Below are positions 3,622 through 59,410 of a DNA stretch of 64,000 nucleotides, one piece after another; position 1 is the stretch's first letter; the number at the start of each line of letters is the position of its first letter. Source of the DNA: Candidatus Krumholzibacteriota bacterium (GTDB taxonomy: Bacteria > Krumholzibacteriota > Krumholzibacteriia > Krumholzibacteriales > WJIX01); assembly GCA_034520215.1 (NCBI GenBank), contig JAXHNR010000002.1:266060-330059 (forward strand), given 5' to 3'. The notes beneath the pieces are model-generated. The model worked only from the letters and a program-made list of their open reading frames with translations, did no database searches and had not been told where the DNA came from. Position numbers and translations under genes: made by a program.

Positions 3622-3899
3622 CCGTGATGCGGTGGTTTTGGCTCCAGGGGTTTATCAGCGGGGGTTTGCCCGGCTTGATCTTTACAGTTTGATTTACCGG
3701 AGTAAGATGCTATACTTTCATTTGTCGCGGAAGGAGCAGACGGTCGCTCCGCTTTAAAAGAAGATAAGATCATCAGTTATTAACAGCGGGTTTCCCCTGA
3801 GGAAAGATCGAGGATTGAAAATTCTGGTTAAATCCAAAGCAGATTTTTTATTAACCGTCGACAACTGGGGATCTGTAAAGGGAAGGGATTTGCCGTTTT
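3622..3899. other. Intergenic region between divergent genes
   Basis: I see no gene or repeat here. It separates the transketolase-family promoter from the ADP-ribosylglycohydrolase gene. A weak purine-rich stretch (AAGGGA) sits about 11 bases before the ATG at 3900. Confidence 0.5.
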
Positions 3900-4709
3900 A
3901 TGATAGGAGCGATAGCGGGAGATATAATAGGTTCTGTGTATGAGCACAGCCCGATTAAAACAAAGGATTTTCCCCTGTTCAGCGAGAAATCCCGTTTTAC
4001 AGACGATTCTGTTCTTTCAGTTGCCGTAGCACACGCTATTACGTCAAAATCTTCATATAAGAAGGCTGTCAGGGAGATCGGAAACCGTTACCCTGAAGCC
4101 GGCTACGGAAGCACATTTATACTCTGGCTTTTTTCACTTATTGAAGATTCATACAACAGTTGGGGAAATGGAGCGGCGATGCGTGTTTCGCCGGTGGGCT
4201 TTGCTTTCAAAACAAAAGCGAAGGTTTTAAAGGAAGCGGAGAGAACGGCAGAAATAACGCATAATCACCCTGAAGGTATAAAGGGCGCTTGCGCTACCGC
4301 GCTCGCGGTATTTCTGGCGAAAAATGGAGCGGACAAGGAAGTGATAGAAAGTGAAATCGAGCGGGAGTTCGGTTATGATCTCGATAGAACTGTGATGGAT
4401 ATAAGGCCGGGTTACAGCTGGGAATCATCATGCCAGAAGACAGTGCCCGAGGCTATTGTCTCTTTTCTCGATTCTGTTTCCTACGAAGACGCTGTCAGAA
4501 ACGCCGTGTCTCTTGGAGGAGACAGCGACACGCTGGCCTGTATCGCCGGAGCGATAGCTGAAGCGTATTACAGAGATATACCGAAGGAGATCTTACTGGA
4601 AGTCCGGAATCGCCTGCCCGATGACTTATGGAAAGAATTGAGGCGGTTTTACATAGAATATGGAATAACTGAAATTGCAGGACGGCTCAAGAAAGCAAAC
4701 ACGTTATGA
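3900..4709 (+). CDS. ADP-ribosylglycohydrolase family protein (DraG/ARH-like)
   Basis: Predicted Mg2+-dependent hydrolase that removes ADP-ribose from proteins or small molecules. The N-terminus begins MIGAIAGDIIGS, the usual first strand and helix of the fold. A TDDS metal-binding motif follows at about residues 35-38, then a GNGAAMRVSP segment. The second metal-binding motif, GGDSDTLACIAGAIAEA, is near residues 202-218. At 269 residues it has the normal family length and all recognisable metal ligands. No ADP-ribosyltransferase or dinitrogenase reductase gene lies nearby, so the target is unknown. The Shine-Dalgarno sequence is weak. The next gene starts 82 bp downstream and could be cotranscribed. 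Confidence 0.88.
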   Translation: MIGAIAGDIIGSVYEHSPIKTKDFPLFSEKSRFTDDSVLSVAVAHAITSKSSYKKAVREIGNRYPEAGYGSTFILWLFSLIEDSYNSWGNGAAMRVSPVGFAFKTKAKVLKEAERTAEITHNHPEGIKGACATALAVFLAKNGADKEVIESEIEREFGYDLDRTVMDIRPGYSWESSCQKTVPEAIVSFLDSVSYEDAVRNAVSLGGDSDTLACIAGAIAEAYYRDIPKEILLEVRNRLPDDLWKELRRFYIEYGITEIAGRLKKANTL

Positions 4710-4791
4710 AATATATATCAGCGGCATCAAGCCCTGTTATATTAGAATACAAGTGTTCACCCGGCGGAATTTACCGCCGTAAGATGTTAAT

Positions 4792-5709
4792 ATGGGAATG
4801 ATCATGAAAGATGTCCTCGTAGTACATAACAGCGCGTCCGGAAATCATAAAACGCCTTATTTGAAGAAAGTTCTCGACAGGTATTTCAGCGCTCCCGAGT
4901 TCAATTACAAATTGTATGAAGTGACAGGGGGAGAATTGATTGAGGATGTTGTGCGGGATCACGTAAAAAGGGGTTACGATTTGATTGTCGCCGCCGGCGG
5001 CGACGGAACGATCTCGGCGGTCGCGGGCGGACTTGTGGGCGAGAGAGCGCCTCTGGGAATCATACCTGTCGGCACGGGCAATATGATAGCGAGGGAGCTT
5101 AGGATACCGCTTAACATAAAGCGTTCAGCGGAGGTAATATCCTCGAGACACACTATAAAAACAATAGACGCGATGCGGCTCGGCAACCGGACTTTCATAC
5201 TTACCATAGGGGTGGGTATAAGCTCCCTGGCCGTCAGAGATCTGACCAGGAAAGACAAAAGCCGTTTCGGGCTTCTCGCCTATGTAGGTTCCGCTTTGAA
5301 ACATATTGTCAAGTTCAAGCCGCACGACTTCACCTTGACAGTGGACGGGGAGAGGATGAAAATCAGGTCGCCTGAAGTCTCTGTTTCCAACGGAGGCATA
5401 ATCAGCGACATGATACTTCCGAAAGGACTGGGTATACGGATTGACGACGGGGCCGTCGATGTCTGTTACGTAAAGGCGAATTCAGTTAAAGACTACCCCG
5501 CCCTCATGCTTAATGTTCTCGGCAGAAAACCGACCGGTTCAAGGATATGCTGCCTAAAGGCGCGCAAAAAGATCACAATAGACGCCGAAAAAAAAATAAC
5601 CGTTCAGGCGGACGGCGAAGTGACGGGAGAAACTCCAATTACCGTAGAAGTTATTCCGAGCGCTTTCCGTGTTATCGTCCCGGAGAATGCCGGGAATCAC
5701 AGAGGTTAG
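4792..5709 (+). CDS. Diacylglycerol/lipid kinase family protein (YegS/DgkB-like)
   Basis: Predicted ATP-dependent lipid kinase of the DAGK catalytic family, acting at the membrane in phospholipid or isoprenoid-lipid turnover. The first strand and phosphate loop read VVHNSASG. The hallmark nucleotide motif GGDGTISAVAGG comes next, then PLGIIPVGTGN, the second glycine-rich motif. The C-terminal half forms the expected beta-sandwich, ending with a sequence like the family's 'xxVQADGE' motif. Length (305 residues) is typical. Two in-frame starts compete: ATG 4792 and ATG 4804. The second gives the more usual N-terminus and has GGGA just ahead of it. Substrate specificity cannot be read from sequence. 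Confidence 0.88.
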   Translation: MGMIMKDVLVVHNSASGNHKTPYLKKVLDRYFSAPEFNYKLYEVTGGELIEDVVRDHVKRGYDLIVAAGGDGTISAVAGGLVGERAPLGIIPVGTGNMIARELRIPLNIKRSAEVISSRHTIKTIDAMRLGNRTFILTIGVGISSLAVRDLTRKDKSRFGLLAYVGSALKHIVKFKPHDFTLTVDGERMKIRSPEVSVSNGGIISDMILPKGLGIRIDDGAVDVCYVKANSVKDYPALMLNVLGRKPTGSRICCLKARKKITIDAEKKITVQADGEVTGETPITVEVIPSAFRVIVPENAGNHRG

Positions 5710-10367: not shown

Positions 10368-11180
10368 TTGACATTAATGAATAGCAGCGCGGCGGATCTC
10401 TTCTCGGGGCATTTTCAAGTGGGATTTGAAAAGCCCGAGCTTGAAATGCTCAGGCGCGTAATATCGGAATATTCTAAGATACCCTATGAAAATCTCACTA
10501 AGATCATCAATAAATTTTCCGGGGATGATTTTTCGAGCAGGATGAGAACCCCCGAAAGGCTTATGAAAGAATATATCAGCAGTAATACGGGCGGCACGTG
10601 TTTTTCCCTTACTTTCTGCCTCGGATCGATACTTTCTGACGCCGGATTCCGCTGTTATCCCGTTATGGCGGACATGAAAAAGCCGAACATACATTGCGCT
10701 CTGGTTGTTTGTGTTGGCGACAAGAAGTACGTGGTAGATCCCGGATATCTCCTCGGAGAACCGGTTGAACTAAAAGGATCGGTCGTGAAAATATCAACTC
10801 CCTTCGGATTCGCGGAATTAAGACCCAGGGGTAAAACGGGATATGATCTCTATACAGTTACAGGATCTGAAAGAAAATGGAGATACAGACTCAAGAATAT
10901 TCCGGTTTCCAAGGGGCGGTTTATGGGTTACTGGAAGGATTCTTTTTCTCAGCCGATGATGAATTCCCTTCAGCTTACGAGGCTTTCGGGGAAGGGGCAT
11001 CTATATATCAGGGACCATCATTTGAGATTTAGAAGCGGAAATAAGAAATTGAATGAGAATATAAGGAATAATATGGAGGTCAGGATCGAATCCGAGTTTG
11101 GAATACCGGCGGAAATCACCGCCCGGGCGCGAGAGCATATTGAGAGGATGAGAGAGTCATGGCGAAAGAAGAATCGTTAG
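10368..11180 (+). CDS. Arylamine N-acetyltransferase family protein
   Basis: Predicted cysteine acyltransferase that moves an acyl group from CoA to an amine. The Cys-His-Asp triad of the family is visible: Cys78 in GGTCFSL, His109 in NIHCAL and Asp124 in VVDPGY. The PYENL segment near residue 40 is also typical. At 270 residues the length is normal. The likely start is TTG at 10368 behind GGAGG; the ATG at 10377 is an alternative. The following gene overlaps it by 22 bp, so they form a two-gene unit. The natural acceptor is unknown, and distant homologues in this family also act in amide-forming natural-product pathways. Confidence 0.85.
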   Translation: MTLMNSSAADLFSGHFQVGFEKPELEMLRRVISEYSKIPYENLTKIINKFSGDDFSSRMRTPERLMKEYISSNTGGTCFSLTFCLGSILSDAGFRCYPVMADMKKPNIHCALVVCVGDKKYVVDPGYLLGEPVELKGSVVKISTPFGFAELRPRGKTGYDLYTVTGSERKWRYRLKNIPVSKGRFMGYWKDSFSQPMMNSLQLTRLSGKGHLYIRDHHLRFRSGNKKLNENIRNNMEVRIESEFGIPAEITARAREHIERMRESWRKKNR

Positions 11181-11707
11181 GCAAACGTTATGTGCCCGTG
11201 AAATTCTTCGCGGCCGTGCTTTTCAGCGGGAGGTTTGATCTTGAAAGCAGTTTTTACGGTGAGCTCGAAGATAAACTGGGAAAGGTTGATTGTTCCGGAG
11301 AAGATCATCCCTTTAACTTAACGGATTATTATAATAATGAAATGGGAGGCGGGCTTAAGAGAAGGATTGTTTCTTTCGCCGGACTTGGCCCGGCGGAAGA
11401 CCTTCCGGCCAAAAAGATGATCTCCGCCGGAATTGAAAAACTGTTCGCGGGCGAGAGGGGAAGAAGAGTCAATCTCGATCCGGGTTATATAGATTACTAC
11501 AAGGTGGTCCTCGCTTCATTCAAAGAAGCACCGCAGAAGATATATCTCTCCGGCGGCGTTTTTGCCGATATGGTTCTTCTCTTCCGGGACGGGGTTTTTA
11601 AATCACTTCCGTGGACATTCCCCGATATTGAGTTGGGACTCTATACGGATGATTTCGCCTGGATTCGCGGGAAATACAAAGAAGAACGCAGAAACGCCCG
11701 AAGGTGA
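11159..11707 (+). CDS. DUF4416 family protein
   Basis: A 182-residue protein that I assign to DUF4416 (PF14385) from its overall pattern: VKFFAAVLFS at the start, the LTDYYNNEMG motif near residue 60, and VNLDPGYID in the middle. No catalytic residues or membrane segments are evident, and the family has no known function. It overlaps the acetyltransferase gene by 22 bp in another frame, so translational coupling is likely. The C-terminus is rich in Lys, Arg and Glu. Family assignment is fairly secure; a role cannot be given. Confidence 0.8.
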   Translation: MAKEESLGKRYVPVKFFAAVLFSGRFDLESSFYGELEDKLGKVDCSGEDHPFNLTDYYNNEMGGGLKRRIVSFAGLGPAEDLPAKKMISAGIEKLFAGERGRRVNLDPGYIDYYKVVLASFKEAPQKIYLSGGVFADMVLLFRDGVFKSLPWTFPDIELGLYTDDFAWIRGKYKEERRNARR

Positions 11708-12005
11708 CGTTCGTCTTTTCCGTATCTTTTTGCGTTCTTTTTTCTACTCTGAAATCTGCAACGGGCGCTTCAAAACAAAGAAGCTGATTAATATGTGATC
11801 TGGGTCCGCATCTGACGGTCAGCGAAAGCATCTCGTTGTTAACACGGGGCTTGTAAACTCTTCACGGCGGAGGTTACGCTGAACAATTTTTGATATGGGG
11901 AAAGAGCCGCGCGGGTCAGTATGCTAAAGAGAGGGAAGCTTCTTTAAGTCAGCGGGGGAAGGGCTCATGCGCGTCAATCCATTATGTAAAGTTTCACCCT
12001 TGATA
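11708..12005. other. Intergenic sequence before repeat copy B
   Basis: About 300 bp without a supported gene. I see no clear promoter or terminator. The structured repeat begins at 12006. Confidence 0.5.
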
Positions 12006-12293
12006 TCAGGACATTCCCCGAAAATCAGGGCAATATTTTAGTAATGGCATAACTATCAAGTAATTACCCATAATGATAAGTGGAATTGATATTTAGTTTC
12101 TATCCGGCTATTGGTATTGTCAAAAACGCCGTCTATTTCCCCTGCGAGGAAATAGCGTCTCCCGCTCTTAGGGCTCGCTCTTCCCCATTTCCTTGTGGAA
12201 ATCAAGAATCCATGCCCGCTCGTCTTCCGAGAGGGTTTTGAAATACCAATAGCCGGATATACAAAGAACATGTAAAAATTGGGGAAACTCCAA
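12006..12293 (-). repeat. Structured MITE-like repeat, copy B
   Basis: On the minus strand this 288-bp element is nearly identical to copy C, apart from the H1 hairpin region where it differs most. It begins TTGGAGTTTCCCCAA (12293 downward) and ends GGGGAATGTCCTGA. The core is bounded by a perfect 16-bp inverted repeat (12101-12116 and 12244-12259: TATCCGGCTATTGGTA and its complement). It contains the CTATTTCC/GGAAATAG hairpin. I see no target-site duplication around this copy. An 84-codon open frame crosses it and is mirrored in copy C, but the base changes between copies preserve stems rather than codons. Confidence 0.85.
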
Positions 12294-12408
12294 CATATAA
12301 TTTCTTGCAATTTCGAATAGAAAACAGTATACTCGGTTTCTGCTTTGACTTTTTTTAGGTTATTTTAAAGTTTCTTGGGGTTGACGGTTTAGAATAGGGG
12401 GCAGCAAA

Positions 12409-15400
12409 GTGCTTTTAACACTTGGTATTGATATCGGTACTGTAAGTGTGAAATGGGCGCTTGCCGGGCCTACTGGTATAATAGAAAAATTGGCCGCGAC
12501 AGGCGGTAACGGGCTGGAAAAAATCAGTGAAATTCCCGGAAAAGCGGACACCGCTTTTGCCGTTTCAGAATACAGGAGAGTTGGGGGGAATCCGGTTACC
12601 GCGGTTAAGGAAACTGTCAGAAGGGTCAGCGGAGAAATCGGTTGGGAGAATATTGGAGGTATAGTTCTTACCGGTTCTTCAAGCGGTGTTATCGGGGCAA
12701 AACTCGGCATTCCGGTTGAAAACGAATTCAAGACCGTTTCAAAGGCCGTGTCTGTTCTTTATCCCGATGTTGTTAATATATTCGAAATGGGCGGAGAGAA
12801 TTCCAAATTCATCAAGATTTCAAGAGTAGACGGTGTTACCGGGATAGAGGATTATGAAACAAACGGGGATTGCGCGGCGGGTACGGGGTCTTTCATGGAC
12901 CAGCAGGCAAACAGGTTGCAGTTCGACATCGGCAAAGTAGGCGATGTCGTAATGAAGGCGGAACGTTCCCCGAAAATAGCCGGAAGGTGCAGTGTTTTCG
13001 CTAAATCCGATATGATACACGCCCAGCAGAAGGGGTATAAACCGGACGAGATACTGAAAGGGCTGTCCGAGGCGGTAGCGAGAAATTTCAAGAGCAATAT
13101 CGCGAAGGGAAAAGATGTAACCGGCAAGACGGTTTTCGCGGGAGGCGTCGCGCTTAACGCGGGTGTCGCGAGAGCGGTAAGAGAAGTTTTCAAGCTCGAT
13201 GAAGATGATTTTTTTGTTCCCGACGAGTGTGTTCATCTTGGAGCTATAGGAGCCGCTCTTTTTGGATCAAACGGGACAGGCGGCTCTCTTGACCTTATTC
13301 GCAAGGCCGTCGGACCGGATTCAGAGGAAGAAGACAGTTCGTTCCCTTCCCTGCCGAGGCTTTCTAAGAAAAATGTCAAGTTTATGCGGGATAAAACAGA
13401 AGCTTACTCCTTTGAGGATAATAATGTAATCAACGCTTTTCTGGGCATAGATGTCGGATCTGTAAGTACCAATCTGGCTCTTATAGATACTCGGGGATCG
13501 GTTATAAAGGAGATCTATCTCCGGACAAGGGCCAGGCCTATAGAGGTTGTAGATCAGGGGCTCATGGAAATCAAAAGAGAGCTTGACGGCAGGGTGGAGG
13601 TCCGCGGAGTTGGAACGACGGGGTCAGGAAGAGAACTTATAGGAAAACTTGTCGGGGCTGACACGATCAACGATGAAATAACGGCTCATAAAACGGGGGC
13701 TTCATTTGTGGCCAAGCGCCTTTTGGATACCGAGGTTGATACGATCTTCGAAATAGGCGGGCAGGACTCGAAATTCATATCTATTGAAGATAATGTGGTG
13801 GTTGACTTTACTATGAATGATGCCTGCGCGGCGGGTACGGGGTCATTTCTGGAAGAGCAGGCTGAAAAGCTGGATATTAATATAATCGATGAATTTGCAA
13901 AAAGAGCCTTTTCATCCGGGAATCCTTTGAGAATGGGCGAAAGATGCACAGTATATATGGAAAAAGATGTCACTTCATATTTAAAACGGGGAGCCGAGAA
14001 AAACAACGTTATTGCCGGGCTTGCTTATTCGGTGGTTCAGAACTACCTCAATCGCGTGGTGAGGGGCAGGAAGATTGGAAATTCGATCTTCTTCCAGGGG
14101 GGAACTGCCTATAACGATTCTGTAGCGGCCGCTTTCAGTGAAGTTCTCGGCAAGGAAATAATTGTTCCTCCGCACAACGGGGTGGTCGGAGCTATAGGAG
14201 CCGCGCTGCTGGCCAGAGAGAAGGTTCTGGCGCTTGAATCGGAAACGACCTTCAGGGGTTATGACATAAACGAAATAGACTACAGCATCCGGGAATTTAC
14301 TTGCAAGGGATGCACGAATTACTGCGGAATCCAGGAGTTTGTCGTTGAAGGCGAACGCACGTACTGGGGGGATAAATGCAGCCGTTTTCGCAGACGCGCC
14401 CAGGGTTCAAAGAAGCCTGTTATTCCGGACCTCTTGGCTCTGTATAATGATCTGTTGACGAGAGATGCCGTAAAAACAGTCGGCAGTGAAATCGGCGGAG
14501 ATATTGACTGCAGCTGGGAAGGGGGCGGAAGGGCTCCAAAAATCGGGCTTCCCAGGGCTATGTATTATTATGACAGGTATCCCTTCTGGAGTGCATATCT
14601 CAGGTCGATGGGATTTGAAGTAATAACGAGCGTAGAGACTAACAGGGAAATAGTACACCTGGGGATGAGCTCTAATGTGGCCGACCCGTGCTTTCCGGTT
14701 CAAATCGCTCACGGCCACACAGTTTCTCTCCTTGAGGAAAACCCGGATTCTATTTTAGTACCTAATGTTATCGACTCAGAGACAGATAATCCCCGAACCA
14801 AGTCCTTTCTCTGCCCCTGGGGGCAGACATTGCCGTTTGTTCTCAGAAGCACTCCCGCCTTTAGCGGCAGACGGGGCCTTATTGCCGACCCGACGGTCCA
14901 TTTCCGGGAAGGAGAATCATTTGTAGAAAAGGAGCTTTGGAAGTTTGCTAAACCTTTTAAGGTAAAGCGCAAGAGGCACAGGGAAGCTGTAAAATTGGCA
15001 TTTGCCGCGCAAAAACTGTTTCGCCGCGACCTTCAGCTGGCCGGAAGAGGCGCCCTTGATATTCTCCGCAGGAAAGATGAATTGGGAATTGTCCTGGTGG
15101 GACGGCCCTATAATATTATGGATTCCGAAGCAAATATGGGAGTGCCCGGGAAGATCAGAGATTATTACGGAATAAATGTGATTCCGTTCTCTTTCCTTCC
15201 TCTCGAAGGGATTGATATTTCGGATGTTGGATACAATATGTTCTGGAACTACGGGCGGGCTATTATGCAGGCGGCGCGTTATGTCAACAGCAATGATAAT
15301 CTTCACATGATATATATAACCAACTTCAAATGCGGCCCGGATTCGTACATAAAGTCTTTTGTAAAGCAGATTTCAACAAAGCCTTTTCTCACGCTGCAGT

Positions 15401-45770: not shown

Positions 45771-47264
45771 TCAGGATGTGGTAGAAATCGTCCCTATTAC
45801 TTTTCTGAAGTGAAACCCGTAGGCGGCCATGGTGAGTACCGTCGGAAATGTCCTGGGGTAGCGGAATATACCGAGCATTAGAAGTTTCCAGAAGTACCAT
45901 CTTCCCCGGGTGGCGACGCCCAACTTCCAAAGTAACCTGGAGAAGGAGGGGATGTTGGAGAAGCTGAATTGGTTTTTTCCCTTTAGAACGGGCTTGTATT
46001 CGCTGAGGAAGGTTTTGATCCTCTCATAGTATTTCTTGTCCGAGTATAGCCAGCCCATAAGGTTTTTGTAACCGTCGGTCAGTGTATGATAGTTCATTTT
46101 GGGAATGATGTTGGTAGAGCCGTCGGTGTTGTCGCCGGTGACCGAGTGCTTCCTGACCAGCCGTCCCTCTTTGCGGAGGCGGGTAAAAAGACGGCTTCCG
46201 GGAGGGGCGTTTAGTATTCCCACCATTGCCGCCACTATACCGCTCTTCTGAATGAAGCTGGCCTGATCCTCGAATATGGAGGGGGGGTCGCTGTCAAAAC
46301 CGACTATGAAACCGGCAGTTACAATGAGACCGTTTCTCTGAAGTGTCTTTACCGATTCTATCATGTCGCGCTTGAGGTTCTGTCTCTTGTCGCATTCCGA
46401 GAGGCTTTCGCTGTTGGGGGTCTCAATTCCGACGAAGACCTCGTCGAATCCGGCATCGACCATCATGCTCATAAGTTCCGGGTCGTCGGAGAGGTCGATA
46501 GAGGCTTCCGCTAGAAAATTAAACGGGTAATCGTGTTTTTTGGACCATTCTATAATCGCGGGAAGTACATCGTTCTTGAGTTTTTCTCTTTTTCCGATGA
46601 AGTTGTCGTCAACCACAAACACGGAGCCCTTCCATCCGTGAAGGCGGAGGCTCTCCAGTTCCTCTAAAAACTGCTGTGTGTTTTTGGTCCTTACCTTTCG
46701 GCCGTTCAGAGTGCTGATACTGCAGAATTCGCAGTTAAAGGGGCAGCCCCTGGAGTATTGAATATTCATGGTGTGGTATCTCTTCATGTTCAGAAGGTCC
46801 CATTTGGGAACAAACGTGGTGTTGATGTCGGGGAATTCCGGGTCCGCGTAGATCTTTTTGAGCTCTCCGTTTTTCAGGTCGCGGATGAATTCCGGCATGA
46901 TATCCTCCGTTTCCTTCAGCACGAAGTGGTCTATTTCGGGAAAAAGCTCGTGTTCGAAGGTGACCATGGGCCCTCCCGCTATTACCTTGGTCTGCATACT
47001 ATTACAGCGCGCGGCAACCTCTCTGAAAGATTTCTTCTGAACATCCATGCCTGACAGGAAAACGTAGTCCGCCCATTTGAGGTCTGAGTCTTTCAGGGTA
47101 TCGATATTAAGGTCCACCAGCCTGGAGTTAAAGTCATCCGGAAGCATCGAGGCTATTGTAAGAAGGCCGAGTGGAGGGGAAGCTGATTTTTTTAAGAATT
47201 TAAGAGCGTATTTAAAACTAAAAAGCGTCGCCGGGATTTCCGGACTTACAAGAAGGATATTCAT
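45771..47264 (-). CDS. B12-binding radical SAM protein (DUF4070 type)
   Basis: A 497-residue protein. A cobalamin-binding-like Rossmann domain occupies residues ~1-135 (NILLVSPE...PPLGLLTIASML, VIAGGP). The radical SAM barrel holds the CPFNCEFC cluster motif with Cys174, Cys178 and Cys181, which ligate the 4Fe-4S cluster that cleaves SAM. The C-terminal ~150 residues match DUF4070, found in methylases and lipid-modifying enzymes such as the hopanoid HpnP group. The DxHxxG cobalamin motif is not obvious, so B12 binding may be base-off or lost. Function: radical methylation or rearrangement of an unknown, possibly lipid, substrate. It has a perfect consensus promoter at 47319-47347. Confidence 0.88.
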   Translation of the reverse strand: MNILLVSPEIPATLFSFKYALKFLKKSASPPLGLLTIASMLPDDFNSRLVDLNIDTLKDSDLKWADYVFLSGMDVQKKSFREVAARCNSMQTKVIAGGPMVTFEHELFPEIDHFVLKETEDIMPEFIRDLKNGELKKIYADPEFPDINTTFVPKWDLLNMKRYHTMNIQYSRGCPFNCEFCSISTLNGRKVRTKNTQQFLEELESLRLHGWKGSVFVVDDNFIGKREKLKNDVLPAIIEWSKKHDYPFNFLAEASIDLSDDPELMSMMVDAGFDEVFVGIETPNSESLSECDKRQNLKRDMIESVKTLQRNGLIVTAGFIVGFDSDPPSIFEDQASFIQKSGIVAAMVGILNAPPGSRLFTRLRKEGRLVRKHSVTGDNTDGSTNIIPKMNYHTLTDGYKNLMGWLYSDKKYYERIKTFLSEYKPVLKGKNQFSFSNIPSFSRLLWKLGVATRGRWYFWKLLMLGIFRYPRTFPTVLTMAAYGFHFRKVIGTISTTS

Positions 47265-47347: not shown

Positions 47348-47586
47348 TGAGTATATAAAATAAATAATATTAACAGGTTATCATGAACAAGCATCTTAGT
47401 TATTCGCGCACCTTTTTCTCAGCGCGCAGATGGCAACCCGCTCCGGTTAAAACGCGGCTCGATGCCCGGGGCACTCAGGCGTTTACGGCGAACACGCCTA
47501 CTCTTAAAAATTAACTTGAATAAACGGCACCCCGTGCGCCGGAAAGCGCCCGCGTTTTAAGAGTTATATTCAATGCTGCCCCTGGC
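47348..47586. other. Intergenic region downstream of the beta-propeller gene
   Basis: No gene is supported. Several short GC-rich inverted repeats (for example AGGCGT/ACGCCT around 47480) could aid termination of the cobalamin-regulated operon, but none is followed by a U-run. Confidence 0.35.
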
Positions 47587-49017
47587 TTACCGGAGCAGAA
47601 TCATCTTCTTTGCGGCCGTAAACCCCCTGCTTTCAAGTCTTACGAAGTAGAATCCTGAAGCGAGGTTTCTTGACCTGCCGTCTTTGCCGTCCCATACCAC
47701 TCTATGCGAGCCGGCGGTAAATTCTCTGTCAGCGATAGTGGCGGTTTTTCTTCCCGCGGCGTCAAAGACAGAGATATTCACTTTACACCCTTTTTTGATT
47801 GAAAAGGGTATTGTCGTTATCGGGTTGAAGGGGTTCGGGTAGTTCTGCTCAAGTACGGCTATGGGTACAGCTTCCGTGTCTGTCTGGACGCCTCCGCTGA
47901 AGCAGATATCGAAGGGGGGAAGCCCGGTGCTTATTGTTCCGCCGGAGACGGAGCTTCCGTCGTAAGCGCTGTAGATCCTTATCCCGGGGTCTGTGCTCGT
48001 CTGGTCGGCCAGGAATATCTCTCCGCCGGGAGAAATTTCGATATCGTTTATAACGTAGTCGCCTGGGGAATATATCGCGGAGAGTTTCTCTCCGGTAGAG
48101 GGATCGAAGCTTATAAAAACGGTGTTGAAGCTCGAATCTGTGATGATAGCATAACCAAGATCGGCAGAGAATATTTCAACGTCGTTGATATCACCTTCAG
48201 CGTTTGATTCGGTCAACATGGGGCTTTCCGCCTGGAGCGTTTCGGGGTTTATCACTTCTACGGCGCCGTCGTTTGTTCCCCAGGAGCCGGGGCAGGCAAC
48301 GTATAATCTGTCCGTATATGGATTATACTGAATGTTGGAGAACGGGTTTTCGCTTCCCAGCTCTATAGCCTGTTTGCCCGGCTGGCCGGGGTCGGTATCC
48401 AAGAGTGTGTCCGCCTGACAGTCTACAACCGCTATGAGGCTTCCTCCTGCGGGAAGCCAGTAGTTGTTTCTGTCCAGTCTCTGAATACTTACAAACAGAA
48501 GGCTGCCCTTTATTATCATTTTGTCCATCTCGCACAGGCCGTCGCTGTCTGCAAGCGCCGATAGATCGACACTGCCGGTATGAGCGCCTGTAGATGGATC
48601 TACGATCCAGAGAGTATTGCTGTCATATCTTGTCACATACGCCTTTGTCTCGGACATAAAGGCTATATCCTGAGGGTTGGATTCATTGCCGACTGAGAAT
48701 TGCCGAAGGGTCTCAAAGCCGGAGGCGGGGTCTAGAACCTGAATATTATCTGCGCCCCCTTTGTTTACGACATAGACAAGTCCGCCAAACCATCTCGAAA
48801 CAGCGTCGCTGTGGATGGAAGCTACATCGATCTCTGTTGTATAATTTCCGTCGAGACGGATAACAGAAGATGATCCCGTAGAATAATCCGTTGTCGTAAT
48901 AAATGCGAATTCACCAGCTTCCGCGTTTAAGGAGAGCATAAGAAAGGTGAATATAACGGCCGCCGCCGCGCTTATTGATTTTATTGACACATTTGATTTA
49001 TTGTCCTTCATCGTCAT
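47587..49017 (-). CDS. Secreted YncE-like beta-propeller protein with C-terminal FlgD/T9SS-type sorting domain
   Basis: A 476-residue protein. The signal peptide spans residues ~14-34 (ending SLNAEA). Repeated blades such as WFGGLVYVVNKGG, ETKAYVTRYDSNTLWIVDP and YNPYTDRLYVACPG make a YncE/NHL-like propeller over residues ~35-375. The C-terminal ~85 residues start LEQNYPNPFNPITTI and end KKMILLR, the FlgD-like sorting module common in FCB bacteria. Its gene overlaps the upstream TonB receptor gene by 20 bp and therefore lies under the cobalamin riboswitch. By analogy with Bacteroides BtuG, a propeller paired with BtuB, it may be a surface B12-binding protein. That role is inferred from context only. 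Confidence 0.82.
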   Translation of the reverse strand: MTMKDNKSNVSIKSISAAAAVIFTFLMLSLNAEAGEFAFITTTDYSTGSSSVIRLDGNYTTEIDVASIHSDAVSRWFGGLVYVVNKGGADNIQVLDPASGFETLRQFSVGNESNPQDIAFMSETKAYVTRYDSNTLWIVDPSTGAHTGSVDLSALADSDGLCEMDKMIIKGSLLFVSIQRLDRNNYWLPAGGSLIAVVDCQADTLLDTDPGQPGKQAIELGSENPFSNIQYNPYTDRLYVACPGSWGTNDGAVEVINPETLQAESPMLTESNAEGDINDVEIFSADLGYAIITDSSFNTVFISFDPSTGEKLSAIYSPGDYVINDIEISPGGEIFLADQTSTDPGIRIYSAYDGSSVSGGTISTGLPPFDICFSGGVQTDTEAVPIAVLEQNYPNPFNPITTIPFSIKKGCKVNISVFDAAGRKTATIADREFTAGSHRVVWDGKDGRSRNLASGFYFVRLESRGFTAAKKMILLR

Positions 49018-51106
49018 TTCCTCTCTTTGTATTAAATTTTATTGTCATATAGAAACTTCTTCCCGGAAGCGGAAATCCGCTTATGTCGCGTATCTGATTG
49101 TTCGTGAGATTTCTGCCCTCTAAGGTGATCGAAAACCTCTCTCCTAAGGGTTTGGTTTCCAGAGAGATGCTGTGGATTTCTCTTTCCGGCACCCTGTCCA
49201 TATTCGCCCTGTCTAAGTAGTTCGAGCCGATATAGTGCAGTTTCCAGGCGAGATTGCATCTTCTTGCGGAAAGGGTTACCGTAAAGGAGGCCTCGTGAGC
49301 CGGCGTGGAAGCCAGCTCGTTTCCGTTGTAGTAGGGGATGGGGCTTGTGTTCTTTCCGTCTATATATGTGTAGTTTCCCGAAAGACCGATAAGAGAAGAT
49401 AGGCGAAGGGAACCTGAGACTTCACATCCCTTTATCCGCGCTGATCCTATATTCTCAGGCTTAACCGTCCTCTGTGAATTCGGGAAGAAGAGTATAAGGT
49501 TTGTGATCTCGTTGTCGAAATAAAGCATTTCAAGGTAGAGATCTTTAAGAGACATGAACCTGTCTTTTGAGAGAACGGCTCCTATATCACGGTTAAGTCC
49601 CTTTTCGGGCTTCAGATTTCCGTCTCCTGTCACACTCCCGGTGTTGCCGAAGAGTTCAAAGAAGGTCGGCGTTCTGTAATGCCTGCCGATATTTCCCTTA
49701 ATTGTAAAGCTTTTAGCTAGATGCAGTTTGAATCCCGCGCGAGGAGATTGATATTCATTTTCAATCTCACCCTGCGGTGTTGGAGGCATCCAGGGGAAGG
49801 GAGCCTCATCGTAGAACTCACTCTGGCTCCAGAGATACTTCGTGCCGGCCGAGAGAACCGCCCTGTCCTTAAAGAGAGACAGATTTCCCGAAATTGCCGC
49901 TGTGAGGTTTTTTCTCAGTCTGTCCGGGCCTTCTCTGAGATCAGGCAGAAAGTCCTTAGGTGTAAAGCGTTCCTTTCTGCCTTCAAGGAAGAGGTCCGCC
50001 GACAGGGGGAGGGATGAGAAAAAGAAGCTTCCCTTCATGTTGCCGCCGTATGATAAGATTCTGTTGTCAGTTTTCTGTTTTACAAGACTTATATCACCGA
50101 GCGGGTCGTCGAATAGCTCCGCTGTCCAGGAGTGAAACGCCGTGAATTCGCTCCGAAGGCGTCTAGAGAATAGCGGCTCGGGCTTCATCCTGAGATAGGT
50201 TATTCTGCGTCTTCTCTTTATCCTGGCCTTTGAAGACTGATTGGCTCCAGTGCCGGGCACACCCCCCTCCCTCTCGAAGCTGTCGAAATTAAGGGAGACC
50301 CTTTCGAGCTCAGGTATCTCTATGTCCGCTCTGAGAGATAAGTTCCACCTGCTGAAATCGCTGTTTAATCTCGTGGCGACCCTGTCATCGGAGATATTTA
50401 AAGGAGTCGCGTTGTCGTCTAAGAATGTAAAATTGCCTTCGCTTTCCGCGTAACCTCCGAAGCAGTTCAGCGTTAAAGGGCCCGCGGCGGAGCTCATCCT
50501 TAGCGCGCCCTTTCGGGTTCCGAACGATCCTGCGGTAACGCTCGAGGAGATATCCACGGGCGCAGGGGCTGAGCGACCCTCCGCGTTCGAGCTCACCGCT
50601 GTCACAAAATTTATCGCGCCGCCTATAGAAGAACTTCCGAATGAGATGGGACTGAACCCCCGGTACACCTCTATCCTGTCTATATTGCCGATCGCAATGT
50701 CTGAGAGGTTTGAAACCCCGGTGCAGGGATCGCTCAGCGGCACGCCGTCTAAGTAAACCTGCACGTGAGATGAGGATGACCCCCTGATAGAGGCAGTGGC
50801 AAAGCTTCCCAGCCCCCCGTATTGCTTTACTCTGATTCCAGTCGCGTTGGACAGAAGGCGGGAGGCGTCCTGCGAAGGGGTCCTTGTGCCGTCCGCGTCT
50901 ATAATGCCTACGAAGCCCGAGTGCCGGAAGAGTTCGCCGCCCGTTTCAGGAGATTCCGCTTCGACTATAATCTCGGGAAGAAGAAACACGGTGTCCGGCA
51001 CTGCATGCCGCTTATCTGACGCTTCGGCACAGCCGGCCGGCGCAAATGGCGCTAACGCCGGAGTCAGTAAAGTAATTTGCAGAATAATTAAAACGAACTT
51101 CCTCAT
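48998..51106 (-). CDS. btuB: TonB-dependent outer-membrane receptor, probably for cobalamin (BtuB-like)
   Basis: A 702-residue outer-membrane transporter. A signal peptide (about 1-28) is followed by a TonB-box-like stretch and the plug domain, with GIRVKQYGGLGSFATASIRGS, VQVYLDGVPL and DRIEVYRG motifs (about residues 85-160). The 22-strand barrel fills the rest and ends with the C-terminal TonB-dependent receptor signature. Specificity for B12 or cobinamide is inferred from the cobalamin riboswitch directly upstream, not from barrel residues. The ATG at 51106 has GGAG close upstream, about 25 nt after the riboswitch. Translationally coupled to the propeller gene. Confidence 0.9.
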   Translation of the reverse strand: MRKFVLIILQITLLTPALAPFAPAGCAEASDKRHAVPDTVFLLPEIIVEAESPETGGELFRHSGFVGIIDADGTRTPSQDASRLLSNATGIRVKQYGGLGSFATASIRGSSSSHVQVYLDGVPLSDPCTGVSNLSDIAIGNIDRIEVYRGFSPISFGSSSIGGAINFVTAVSSNAEGRSAPAPVDISSSVTAGSFGTRKGALRMSSAAGPLTLNCFGGYAESEGNFTFLDDNATPLNISDDRVATRLNSDFSRWNLSLRADIEIPELERVSLNFDSFEREGGVPGTGANQSSKARIKRRRRITYLRMKPEPLFSRRLRSEFTAFHSWTAELFDDPLGDISLVKQKTDNRILSYGGNMKGSFFFSSLPLSADLFLEGRKERFTPKDFLPDLREGPDRLRKNLTAAISGNLSLFKDRAVLSAGTKYLWSQSEFYDEAPFPWMPPTPQGEIENEYQSPRAGFKLHLAKSFTIKGNIGRHYRTPTFFELFGNTGSVTGDGNLKPEKGLNRDIGAVLSKDRFMSLKDLYLEMLYFDNEITNLILFFPNSQRTVKPENIGSARIKGCEVSGSLRLSSLIGLSGNYTYIDGKNTSPIPYYNGNELASTPAHEASFTVTLSARRCNLAWKLHYIGSNYLDRANMDRVPEREIHSISLETKPLGERFSITLEGRNLTNNQIRDISGFPLPGRSFYMTIKFNTKRGNDDEGQ

Positions 51107-51129
51107 TCTCCTACTCCTCGAAGAGGCTA

Positions 51130-51312
51130 AGGAAAGCTGTTTTCGGGCAGGTCTCCTGACTCATAGCTCCAGCGCTTATATGTCTTCCTTCCCGGCGATT
51201 AAGGCCAGTGGATTCAGGCATAAAGCATCGCTAATCACAGTGGCGGGTCCGTGGGAGAATTTCACTCCCTTCCCCATTAAGTCCTGAAGGGACACCCGAA
51301 GATACTTTCAGA
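51130..51312 (-). promoter_or_regulatory. Cobalamin riboswitch
   Basis: On the minus strand the leader contains the B12 box AGTCAGGAGACCTGCC (51161-51146), preceded by the conserved GCCACTG and the flanking core segments, e.g. GGGAAGG...GTGAAATTC near 51255-51280. The 5' part (CTTCGGGTGTCCC) pairs with CGGG beside the B12 box to close the structure. It ends ~25-40 nt before the receptor start, a spacing that suits control of ribosome access. Adenosylcobalamin should repress the operon. Confidence 0.93.
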
Positions 51313-51530
51313 TAGAATTCTATCGCGCCGAATAAAATCAGTCAAGGGATATTTGAAAAGGCCGTTCTGAAGGGAGAAAATCCGGCGGCTTCAAGGAATT
51401 TAATGTTTGAATTATATCCCTTAAGCGGATAAGATTGAAGAAACAGGTGTGATAACGGTATTCGGCGCGGCTGAAATGTTTGAGAATGAAAAGAGAGGAT
51501 GCGGGCAAGAAGCTGTGCTGTTTTTAAACC

Positions 51531-54931: not shown

Positions 54932-55248
54932 ATGGTTGAAAAATATAGAGTAAAAGTTCCCAAGTTGACCGAATGGGCTGAAAGAAACCTTCCGGAAGGA
55001 TTTACAGTTTTCGAGTTACCGGAAAGACATCGAATAAGACTTCGGACAACGAACAGCCTGGAAAGACTAAATGAAGAAATAAAGAGAAGAACTAGAGTAG
55101 CCAGATTGTTCCCCAACGAAGCATCTCTTATTCGGCTTGTCTGTGCTGTTGTATCAGAAATCAGTGATGAATAGGAAGCTGGGAAAAGTTATTTAAACAT
55201 GGAAAGCGAATGGCCTGTTAAAAGAATTTACATAAAAGGTATTGCATG
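54932..55248 (+). pseudogene. IS256-family (mutator-type) transposase, C-terminal remnant
   Basis: The segment RLRTTNSLERLNEEIKRRTRV then LFPNEASLIRLVCAVVSEISDEWEAGKSYL (quoted in parts) is the C-terminal signature of IS256-family transposases, including the region of the third catalytic acid. Only about 105 of ~400 residues remain; the 5' part with the first two catalytic Asp is missing. In addition TGG (Trp of the usual 'DEW') has become TAG at 55172-55174, and homology continues after it to 55248. The gene is dead. A terminal-repeat-like sequence lies 33 bp further on. Confidence 0.85.
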
Positions 55249-55708: not shown

Positions 55709-56680
55709 ATGGCTAGATCAGATATATTAATTTCGTTAATTCAGTCTGCTAATCGTGGCGATATGGTATCGTTTCGAAAGGCAGTAGAGATATTGATTGC
55801 AGAGGAAAGATCTAAGAAACACGATATTTTAGCAGACAGACTAGCAAATTCTCTTAAAAACGGAAGCAATAATGGTGTCTCAATCCAATCCAAGGGTGAA
55901 GCAAGAGACCTATTATTTGAATCCATTGCGGATAGAACATTTGATGGTCTCTTATTAGATAATGAGATTAAATCTATATGTAATGAGCTGATTGAAGAAC
56001 AGCATAGAGCGGACTTACTAAGAAGTCATGGTTTAGAACCGCGTAATCGTATTTTGCTTGCGGGTTCACCAGGAAATGGTAAAACTAGCTTGGCAGAAGC
56101 AATTGCCACACATTTAATGTATCCGCTCTATATCATTCGTTATGAAAACCTCATTGGCAGTTATTTGGGCGAAACTGCATCGCGACTTCAAAAAGTATTT
56201 GAGTATGTTAAAACAAGAAATTGTGTTTTGTTTTTTGACGAATTTGATACCATTGGAAAAGAACGTGGAGATACGAAAGAAACTGGAGAAATCAAAAGGG
56301 TAGTCAGTTCACTGCTATTGCAGATGGACAGATTACCTACATATGTGGTTATTATTACTGCTAGTAATCATCCTGAATTATTAGATCGAGCAGTTTGGCG
56401 AAGATTTCAAATTCGATTGGAATTAAAACGTCCGAAAAATATTCAAATTGAATCTTTTATTGACAATATCGCAAAAAAGAGTAAATGTAATTTTAATTAT
56501 AGTTATAAAACTTTATCAAATAAGTTAAAAGGAAAAAGCTATTCGGAAATTGAGGAATTTTGTGTCGAGATAATTCGTAAAGCTGTATTACAACATAAAC
56601 AGGATGATGCAAAAGCCATAGTTTCAAAGTCCTTGAAACAATGGCAAATAAAATACTCTGGAAAAAATGTAGGTGTATAA
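55709..56680 (+). CDS. ietA: AAA+ ATPase of an IetAS-like ATPase-protease pair
   Basis: A 323-residue ATPase. The N-terminal ~110 residues are helical and unrecognised. The AAA core has Walker A GSPGNGKT at 119-126, the pore-loop-like YENLIGSYLGETASRL, Walker B LFFDEFD at 174-180, a sensor-1 TASN and arginine-finger region DRAVWRRFQ. The gene ends three bases before a subtilisin-like protease gene. This gene order and these families match IetA-IetS, first described as an Agrobacterium plasmid-stability pair and later reported as anti-phage. A role as antitoxin or regulator of the protease is inferred. Codon and base use are AT-rich, unlike the left part of the window. Confidence 0.85.
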   Translation: MARSDILISLIQSANRGDMVSFRKAVEILIAEERSKKHDILADRLANSLKNGSNNGVSIQSKGEARDLLFESIADRTFDGLLLDNEIKSICNELIEEQHRADLLRSHGLEPRNRILLAGSPGNGKTSLAEAIATHLMYPLYIIRYENLIGSYLGETASRLQKVFEYVKTRNCVLFFDEFDTIGKERGDTKETGEIKRVVSSLLLQMDRLPTYVVIITASNHPELLDRAVWRRFQIRLELKRPKNIQIESFIDNIAKKSKCNFNYSYKTLSNKLKGKSYSEIEEFCVEIIRKAVLQHKQDDAKAIVSKSLKQWQIKYSGKNVGV

Positions 56681-56683
56681 ATA

Positions 56684-59410
56684 ATGGCGGACAAACCGCT
56701 TCTTTTCTTCCCTAATCCAGCTACTGCCGATAGAATGAAAAAGGCAACAGGTAGGGGCGCACCTAATTATCATTTTCCAGATGTTAACAGGCAAAAAGAC
56801 CGTTTGACCCCCCAATTCCAGGCGATGAACCAATCTTTCATTACAGACTCTTCTATTGGTATAGAGCCGGAAGCAGTTCTTGTATTGGAAGTAGTCGGAG
56901 AGATTAAAGATTTTACTCGAGCAGTCAGAGCAATTGATGGATTGGAGTGGTTGGCCGAGATAGATATTGAAACTATTGATCCTGATGATGATTTTTTTGT
57001 GTCTCCTAAAATTAGGAAACGACTTCTGTATCATAAAATAGATTCACTAAATACTAATCAATCATCTCAAATATGGAATCTTCTTAAAGATAATTCTTTC
57101 ATTGATAAATTTGGTTATAGAACCGAAAAACCCCTCGATGAATTCATTTCCCTAATTCCTGATGTGTTCAATGATGTGAAGAATCAAATAATAGAAGTAT
57201 TGAAAAGTGCTACGGTTCCATCTGAGTGTTTTTCTGGGCGATTATTTCTTAGTATGAGCAACCAACATGCTATGAACGATATACTGTCTAAATGGAATCA
57301 ATGGGATTCTGAGAGGAAGCTACCAAGAGGATATCAGAAGTGGTCAGAAATATTTTCATTCTTGAAGGTTCTTAGACGCTGGGATGTATCAGATAGATTA
57401 AGAGAAACTCGAGTCTTGGAATATTGGCGTGAAAACCTCGATTTTTATCAATCTCAGAACCTGCTGTTCCCTTTTGAAGTTGAACTTTGGTATAGAGAGG
57501 ATAGGGCAAAACGCGGCGCTGCATTAGACCATATTCGAGAATTGGTCCAAGCTGAAAATGGACAAATCATAAAAACGTGCACTATTGAGGAAATCCGGTT
57601 TTGCGCTGTAAAAGCTATGCTACCGCATGCAAAAATCAAAGGAGTACTAGAATCTCAGTATGTGGCCTTATTCCGAAGTAATGATGTAATGTTCTTCCAT
57701 CCTACTGGGCAATGTGCCGTAGATATTTTGCCCGATGGAGAAGTTGGAGAATTTACTCCTGGAGAAGTATCAGGTGACCCATTGGTGGGGATCTTAGATG
57801 GAGCGCCTTTTACAAACCATAAGTTGTTGGACAATCGCCTCATTCTAGATGATCCAGATGATTTCAGTAGCATGTATCAAGCAAGTGAGAGAAGACATGG
57901 TACTGCAATGGCATCGCTTATATGTCACGGCGAGTTAGATGAAAACAGCATATCGTTGAATACGCCAATTTACATCAGGCCTATAATGATACCAAATCAA
58001 AATGATCTCAATAGAAATGAGTATATTCCAGAGAACGAATTTTTCGAAGACCTAATCGAAAGAGCTGTACGTCGTATATTTGAAAATTCTGAAGGGGAAG
58101 ATCCTATTGCCCCTACAATTAAGATTATTAATATCTCTATAGGAGACCCCGCCAAGGTCTTCTTTCACCGCCTAAGTTCTGTGTCCAAATTATTGGATTG
58201 GCTGTCCTACAAATATAGTGTTCTCTTTTGTGTAAGTGCTGGAAATGTTACTGATGATATTGAGTTAGGTCTTTCGGAAGATCAGTTTTTATCTCTATCA
58301 CAAGAAGAGCAAGCTACTACCACATTGAAATTCATTCATAGTAATTCTCGGAATTATAGGATAATTGCTCCGGGAGAATCCATAAATGCAATCACTGTTG
58401 GAGCAATACATAATGATTATTCAACTATTGCTGGATTGGGCAATAGAGTAGATATATTGCCTGATATTAACTTGCCATCTCCTATTTCACCGTTTGGTTT
58501 TGGTTACCGTTCGTCAATAAAACCTGAAATTTACATATCTGCTGGTAGGCAGCTCTATGACTATCACCAAAATAATTCTTATGGAATTAGTAGATCTCCT
58601 TTGGCTCCTGGGCAAAAAGTTGCAGCAGCACCTGTTGCTGCTGGAGATACAACTCGTGCTACTTATTCATGCGGTACAAGTAATGCAGCTGCACTTGCGA
58701 CACGATTTGGTGCGATGGTAGTAGAGTCAATCTACGAGTTAGCTGATCAAACTCGGGTAAATATACCAGATGAAAATATTTCTCCTCTAGTAAAGGCTTT
58801 GCTTATACATAGCGCGTCCTGGGGTAAGAGCAAAGATGTAATGGACCTGTACATGAGTGGCGGATTAAATAGGAAATCTTTAACGAAATATCTTGGATAT
58901 GGGATACCCTTATTGCAAAGAGTTTTAGAATGTACGAATCAAAGGGCAACTGCTATAGGATACGGCCAAATTGGCAAAGATGAACGACATGAGTTTAAAT
59001 TACCGCTTCCTCCAAGCCTGAATGGTTCAAGTGAAGGCAGGAGATTAACCATTTCTTTGGCTTGGATGAGCCCTGTCAGTTTTACAAACCGAAACTACCG
59101 TAAAGCAAATCTAACATTTGATCCTCCTAAAGCAGGTATTGCAGATGATAGAAGCGAAGCAGATTGGCAAAAAGTAAAGAAAGGTACCGCACAGCACGAG
59201 GTATTGATAGGAAGCAATGTTGCCTCTTTTGTAGACGGGGATACGATTTTAATACCTGTGGAATGCCGTGAAGACGCGGGGAGCTTAGATGAATCAGTCT
59301 ACTATGGATTAGCAGTAACTTTGGAAGTAAAAGAAGATATTGATATTCCAATTTACGACGAAATTAAGGAAAGAATAGAGGTCCCGATTGCAATTCAAAA
59401 CGACCAATGA
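56684..59410 (+). CDS. ietS: Subtilisin-like serine protease of an IetAS-like pair
   Basis: A 908-residue S8 peptidase without a signal peptide, so cytoplasmic. The first ~360 residues are an unrecognised N-terminal domain. The catalytic triad is complete: Asp372 in VGILDGAPF, His405 in RRHGTAMAS, Ser666 in CGTSNAAAL; Asn521 in SAGN supplies the oxyanion. The C-terminal ~190 residues form a beta-rich domain. The start is ATG three bases after the ATPase stop. Such protease-ATPase pairs act as defence or addiction modules, with the protease thought to be the effector; its target is unknown. Transfer is suggested by composition and by the island setting. Confidence 0.87.
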   Translation: MADKPLLFFPNPATADRMKKATGRGAPNYHFPDVNRQKDRLTPQFQAMNQSFITDSSIGIEPEAVLVLEVVGEIKDFTRAVRAIDGLEWLAEIDIETIDPDDDFFVSPKIRKRLLYHKIDSLNTNQSSQIWNLLKDNSFIDKFGYRTEKPLDEFISLIPDVFNDVKNQIIEVLKSATVPSECFSGRLFLSMSNQHAMNDILSKWNQWDSERKLPRGYQKWSEIFSFLKVLRRWDVSDRLRETRVLEYWRENLDFYQSQNLLFPFEVELWYREDRAKRGAALDHIRELVQAENGQIIKTCTIEEIRFCAVKAMLPHAKIKGVLESQYVALFRSNDVMFFHPTGQCAVDILPDGEVGEFTPGEVSGDPLVGILDGAPFTNHKLLDNRLILDDPDDFSSMYQASERRHGTAMASLICHGELDENSISLNTPIYIRPIMIPNQNDLNRNEYIPENEFFEDLIERAVRRIFENSEGEDPIAPTIKIINISIGDPAKVFFHRLSSVSKLLDWLSYKYSVLFCVSAGNVTDDIELGLSEDQFLSLSQEEQATTTLKFIHSNSRNYRIIAPGESINAITVGAIHNDYSTIAGLGNRVDILPDINLPSPISPFGFGYRSSIKPEIYISAGRQLYDYHQNNSYGISRSPLAPGQKVAAAPVAAGDTTRATYSCGTSNAAALATRFGAMVVESIYELADQTRVNIPDENISPLVKALLIHSASWGKSKDVMDLYMSGGLNRKSLTKYLGYGIPLLQRVLECTNQRATAIGYGQIGKDERHEFKLPLPPSLNGSSEGRRLTISLAWMSPVSFTNRNYRKANLTFDPPKAGIADDRSEADWQKVKKGTAQHEVLIGSNVASFVDGDTILIPVECREDAGSLDESVYYGLAVTLEVKEDIDIPIYDEIKERIEVPIAIQNDQ

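Follow-up and report, generated by a model that had tools for sequence, protein, structure and literature searches.

A BtuG-like beta-propeller with a type IX secretion tail and its riboswitch-linked receptor: a candidate B12 uptake pair in Krumholzibacteriota and other phyla

The BtuB-BtuG systems of Bacteroides thetaiotaomicron (BtuB1G1, BtuB2G2 and BtuB3G3; PDB 8blw, 8bmx, 8p97 and 8p98) are controlled by cobalamin riboswitches and combine a TonB-dependent receptor with an adjoining surface protein, BtuG, an acidic seven-bladed beta-propeller whose N-terminus carries a lipid together with the export signal. In BtuG2, the lipid anchor supplies a hinge and B12 is drawn to the protein by electrostatics (PMC10404256). 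BtuG has been stated to be exclusive to the Bacteroidetes (PMC6143338), and TonB receptors capped by lipoproteins have been said to seem exclusive to the same group and suited to competition in the gut (PMC10404256). Here we describe a locus from a Candidatus Krumholzibacteriota bacterium (assembly GCA_034520215.1), found in a stretch of 64,000 nucleotides of contig JAXHNR010000002.1 (positions 266,060 to 330,059; hereafter the window, to which coordinates refer unless another locus is named), where a cobalamin riboswitch, a receptor gene and a propeller gene follow one another. Judging from sequence comparisons and structural models, we hold it about 80% probable that the two genes form a B12 (cobamide) uptake unit, with the propeller acting like the BtuG of Bacteroides.

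Read along the minus strand, the locus runs from a promoter-like site through the riboswitch, the TonB-dependent receptor gene and the propeller gene to a terminator-like hairpin. The riboswitch aptamer (RF00174; 51129-51314) scored 102 bits (gathering score 31.5; E 2.1e-24), ends 22 nt before the receptor start codon and is the sole copy detected by a scan of the 2.6 Mb genome. The receptor gene (48998-51106) encodes a BtuB-like protein of 702 aa with a Plug domain (residues 74-164, 62.9 bits) and a barrel (residues 248-667, 116 bits), and overlaps the open reading frame of the propeller (47587-49017, 476 aa) by 20 nt, in agreement with the original prediction of a riboswitch preceding a TonB receptor gene that overlaps the gene of a secreted propeller. 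By its reading frame, profile and fold, the latter is a BtuG-like secreted protein with a type IX secretion system (T9SS) tail. It comprises a predicted Sec signal peptide (residues 1-34; 48916-49017), assigned by sequence inspection and similar in relatives, a seven-bladed propeller domain (residues 35-385; 47863-48915) and a T9SS type A C-terminal sorting domain of FlgD-like immunoglobulin fold with the motif NYPNPFNP (residues 393-476; 47590-47841).

The propeller had initially been labelled YncE-like, a term that proved imprecise, as the protein is nearer BtuG than YncE both by profile and by fold. A PDB search with the single sequence gave weak matches (E ~0.01) to Bacteroides proteins of the YncE family, which are the BtuG structures. 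With a profile built from 22 relatives and searched against 177,635 PDB sequences, nine matches were obtained at E <= 0.01, every one of them BtuG (E 1.2e-9 to 1.7e-8), and in HHalign the 81 family members aligned with BtuG2 at a probability of 97.2 (E 1e-10), the BtuG2 sequence having been checked against the PDB chains. The AlphaFold2 model (predicted local distance difference test, pLDDT, 92.7; predicted template modelling score, pTM, 0.91) has seven blades. The structural likeness expected by the original prediction was apparent when this model was compared by Foldseek with 350,542 PDB chains, where ranks 1-15 were all BtuG1, BtuG2 or BtuG3 (E 4e-16), most of them solved with cobalamin, and the template modelling scores against BtuG structures were 0.73-0.81 over the whole chain. 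They were followed by the archaeal YVTN propeller 1l0q (8e-13), XusB (2.8e-10) and YncE of Escherichia coli (1.3e-9), the last being a beta-propeller as well but one that the sequence profile missed. The net charge of the propeller domain is about -37, as opposed to -15 for BtuG2 by the same computation over the compared region. Motifs conserved in the family (NP, GD and GLPP) fall in loops before inner strands; the conservation of DLSxxADxDG among the named loci is partly an artefact, since this motif served as the search pattern. Apart from the tail, Pfam and NCBIfam searches of the propeller gave nothing significant.

Other surface proteins that capture B12 and are encoded in riboswitch operons include the lipoproteins BtuH, BtuJ (DUF4465) and BtuK. 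BtuH and BtuJ, unlike the protein described here, are not propellers, and BtuK1, which is one, was a far weaker fold match (Foldseek rank 33).

The likeness to BtuG could in principle reflect only a common fold, an unrelated YncE/YVTN propeller having been recruited beside a BtuB-like receptor. Internal repeats do inflate similarity among propellers, the protein shares only about 16% sequence identity with BtuG, and HMMER aligned not only blade 2 with blade 2 but also family blade 5 with BtuG blade 1. We nevertheless consider such convergence improbable, given that, of the many other propellers in the PDB, none reached E 0.01 with the profile, that the HHalign alignment is colinear from end to end with no circular shift, and that the receptors are related too. 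The propeller is probably a remote homologue of BtuG. It is best described as a member of a BtuG-like sister family and not as BtuG itself, because the defining lipoprotein feature is absent and the Pfam family of BtuG2, PF16819 (DUF5074), is unmatched.

The receptor resembles the same Bacteroides systems. Its best match among PDB sequences was BtuB1 of B. thetaiotaomicron (3.8e-31), followed by XusA, BtuB3, BtuB2 and E. coli BtuB, and the top six Foldseek chains for its model (pLDDT 83.4) were XusA (rank 1), BtuB1, BtuB3 and BtuB2, all propeller-capped receptors. The protein combines a Plug with a 22-strand barrel and has BtuB as its nearest solved relative. E. coli BtuB is likewise a TonB receptor for B12 under a cobalamin riboswitch, but acts alone without a propeller. 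On TIGR01779, a model built on proteobacterial BtuB, the receptor scored 103.6 bits, far under the cut-off of 599.7, and is therefore of the Bacteroides kind and not an E. coli-type BtuB. The mirror-tree correlation between receptor and propeller was 0.87 (0 of 999 permutations as high), which is weak evidence for contact as shared species history was not removed.

The rank of XusA among these matches brings up a different ligand. The XusA-XusB xenosiderophore pair of Bacteroides (PDB 9gbc and 9hqk) also places a propeller lid on a TonB receptor, and the pair described here might import something else, for example a metal chelate, while being merely B12-regulated. XusA is the nearest receptor by fold and the second by sequence. 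XusA-XusB differs from the present locus in its siderophore ligand, its lipoprotein lid and its lack of a cobalamin riboswitch, and XusB scores far under BtuG as a match to the propeller. We regard an alternative ligand as very unlikely, considering also that the nearest receptor sequence is BtuB1, that E. coli BtuB was matched as well, that the riboswitch is the only one of its kind in the genome, and that just three proteins encoded there, the receptor among them, have a Plug domain. The genome further encodes the B12-dependent ribonucleotide reductase NrdJ and has no CobS; as this is the absence of a single gene from a 97% complete genome, B12 auxotrophy of the host is no more than likely.

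The association of the three elements holds in related genomes, as the proposed survey of riboswitch-linked receptors and their neighbours showed. Of 58 genomes from the same class or nearer, 40 have riboswitch, receptor and propeller in the same order on one strand. A receptor and propeller without a visible riboswitch occur in four more, three of them at a contig edge and one in a rearranged assembly, and six genomes belonging to the same order lack a propeller, their riboswitch or receptor fragment lying elsewhere. In the three of these six that were read in detail (our labels G010, G014 and G018; loci L062, L063 and L064), the riboswitch precedes a solo receptor and there is no propeller; that of G018 is of the E. 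coli type (E 5.7e-46), the type seen in propeller-less genomes of this order. The propeller thus tracks the type of receptor and not merely the riboswitch. The solo receptors of G014 and G018 adjoin a phosphate-transport cluster. In loci L068 and L071 (genomes G019 and G005), a second cobalamin riboswitch lies before what by inspection appears to be a gene for an anaerobic ribonucleotide reductase, an enzyme that could stand in for NrdJ without B12.

When species genomes were scanned with the propeller profile, 80 loci emerged, labelled by their submitters as Krumholzibacteriota, Latescibacterota, Eisenbacteria, Handelsmanbacteria, Effluviviaceae, Gemmatimonadota, Deltaproteobacteria (NCBI: Myxococcota), Binatota, Nitrospirota, Thermodesulfobacteriota and Spirochaetota. 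The family of propeller-receptor pairs spans about ten phyla, a survey figure that is a lower bound and biased by the DLSxxADxDG pattern. The receptor gene is present in 77 of the 80 loci and immediately upstream of the propeller in 76, an order opposite to that of the Bacteroides pairs, from which the new ones also differ in usually occurring once per genome. Most loci have a cobalamin riboswitch before the receptor, the exceptions being truncated contigs and the most distant members; riboswitch positions in the named genomes were assigned by coordinates with contig names unchecked, and doubtful loci were rescanned directly. Several operons contain further B12 genes. One (L121) has btuF between riboswitch and receptor and btuD and btuC after the propeller, another (L106, Thermodesulfobacteriota) encodes a BtuF-type binding protein and ExbD along with ExbB and TonB-like genes recognized by inspection, and genes of B12 synthesis were found in three others (cbiB and cbiA in L114; cobU and cobS in L136; cobN in L139). 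The run in L106 is riboswitch, BtuF-like gene, more transport genes, propeller, receptor and ExbB/ExbD/TonB-like genes, so that the propeller here stands before the receptor. In L114 (Nitrospirota), a second, ordinary YVTN/YncE-type propeller (11288-12454 of that locus) follows the cobalamin genes, with a riboswitch match, by coordinates, shortly ahead of it at 11079-11202.

These surveys bear on whether the propeller binds a cobamide at all. The receptor could import B12 while the propeller, placed at the surface by the T9SS, serves some other purpose, for example adhesion, protection or the folding of the receptor. Many matches in the genome are to the tail alone, T9SS tails being common there, the propeller fold is itself common, and the residues of the BtuG2 binding site are not conserved letter for letter. 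Still, BtuG stands out among all propellers both by profile and by fold, the protein is strictly paired with one receptor type and lost together with it, and it is present in B12 transport and synthesis operons of other phyla with different anchors. A non-binding propeller seems unlikely to us on these grounds, and the reading as a BtuG-like B12 uptake pair with a different anchor is the one on which profile, fold, receptor type, riboswitch linkage, operon partners and co-loss agree.

A number of findings weigh against this reading. Besides the low identity to BtuG, PF16819 is matched by BtuG2 at 74.7 bits and by none of the 22 family members at E <= 1, two distant members of the wider family giving weak matches (E 0.008-0.009). 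Together, the low identity and the failure of PF16819 to detect the family may explain why earlier BLAST-based searches found no relatives outside the Bacteroidetes. The pocket residues Trp194, Trp272 and Tyr316 of BtuG2 have no clear one-to-one counterparts in the HHalign alignment, and the propeller has no lipid anchor, unlike BtuG2 with its lipid-supplied hinge. Pairing with receptors that lack a riboswitch, which the original prediction had named as counter-evidence, was seen only at the distant edge of the family, in Binatota/UBP10-type and Spirochaetota loci of ~30% identity. In one genome (G044), a contig (L160, G044:C18) encodes two family propellers (3-1109 and 3763-5175) with T9SS tails amid other T9SS-tailed proteins, and neither a receptor nor a riboswitch is nearby. 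Three of the riboswitch-less loci, from Binatota/UBP10-type metagenome-assembled genomes (L145, L146 and L148), have a selenocysteine tRNA gene nearby (67-69 bits).

The anchor is the clearest difference from BtuG. Sequence inspection of the propeller N-terminus revealed no lipobox cysteine, as required of a lipoprotein export signal, and residues 393-473 match TIGR04183 (32.3 bits, cut-off 23) and PF18962 (29.2 bits, cut-off 27). Both the T9SS translocon SprA (497 bits summed) and the sortase PorU (579 bits) are encoded in the genome, with scores above cut-off, and the propeller, with sorting domain and machinery in place, is predicted to be T9SS type A cargo. The claim that the protein is not a lipoprotein but carries a FlgD/T9SS-type tail therefore stands for this propeller; it does not extend to the family, where several other phyla have lipoprotein versions. 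Of the 77 propellers that could be classed, the T9SS tail accounts for 47 and the lipobox for 18; dockerin-like repeats, at either the N- or the C-terminus, occur in 11, and the one left has a different extension. These counts are approximate, since lipoboxes and dockerins were called by eye and Pfam supported the calls only in part. The tree requires at least six anchor changes, and on branches with strong support alone each of the three main types still needs two or more. As pairs elsewhere use T9SS cargo, a lipoprotein or a dockerin-like fusion, the anchor has been swapped repeatedly. One lipobox-bearing member from a Deltaproteobacteria metagenome-assembled genome (L143, 5878-7764) has a 230-aa C-terminal extension with no Pfam or PDB match; a resemblance to DUF4465 noted by eye was dropped for want of support from these searches.

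The data suggest a model for the pair. When B12 is scarce, the riboswitch would permit expression of the BtuB-like transporter and its partner propeller. The propeller would be exported by Sec and then cross the outer membrane through the T9SS by means of its C-terminal tail, which is probably cut by PorU before the protein is held at the surface. There, the strongly acidic propeller may capture the cobamide and pass it to the receptor, most likely acting as a lid on the barrel, and the receptor would then import it, driven by TonB. Over evolution, the means of surface attachment (T9SS tail, lipid or dockerin-like repeats) has been exchanged several times while the propeller-receptor core was kept together. 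The two ends of a beta-propeller sit side by side, so that an anchor shifted from the N- to the C-terminus could leave the seating of the lid unchanged. T9SS type A tails are normally cleaved off, which makes a freed scavenger, soluble or linked to lipopolysaccharide (LPS), conceivable. More tentatively, propeller-capped B12 receptors could be an old multi-phylum design with a portable capture propeller and a freely exchanged anchor, in which the propeller of T9SS lineages may be cut loose as a diffusible or LPS-linked scavenger in place of a hinged lid. The family offers a natural test of the lid mechanism: if a lid cannot work without its lipid hinge, versions anchored by the T9SS or fused to dockerins should fail, and if these are functional, the hinge model needs revision.

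As judged from sequence, the loci contradict the restriction of such pairs to the Bacteroidetes, and targeted full-text searches of open-access papers (subscription papers and preprints being outside their scope) returned no report of BtuG in these phyla. The same pair is now placed in sediment, groundwater and marine lineages, and the capped-receptor design has for that reason probably not arisen for life in the gut. For B12 ecology, the loci would identify a group of uncultured phyla as scavengers of the vitamin.

Some further features of the locus and its surroundings were recorded. The promoter-like site (TTGACT-17-TAGAAT; 51317-51345, minus strand) lies immediately 5' of the riboswitch and was found by a consensus scan with 10/12 matches, which alone is no proof of function; the terminator-like hairpin 3' of the propeller gene (47525-47541, minus strand) came from a similar scan, in a region where the number of hairpins is not above that of shuffles. 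The propeller may instead start at a second ATG, at 49011, where the Shine-Dalgarno spacing is better (AGAGGA followed by 7 nt); this would give a protein of 474 aa and a 14-nt overlap. Folding of the whole leader RNA showed no excess of stability over shuffles (z -0.04), and we therefore make no claim for an expression platform. Nothing in the plasmid records matched the locus. The next gene downstream on the same strand (45771-47264, minus) encodes a radical SAM protein that contains DUF4070 and a domain for B12 binding (PF02310, 36.6 bits), a probable B12 user, by its domains, adjoining the B12 importer; a perfect TTGACA-17-TATAAT promoter match lies ahead of it at 47347-47319. Elsewhere in the window, at 55709-59410 on the plus strand, an AAA ATPase gene is directly followed by a gene for a subtilisin-like protease (HGT and SGTSNAA motifs), a pair that resembles the kind found in some defence islands and is preceded by a transposase-like fragment at 54932-55174.

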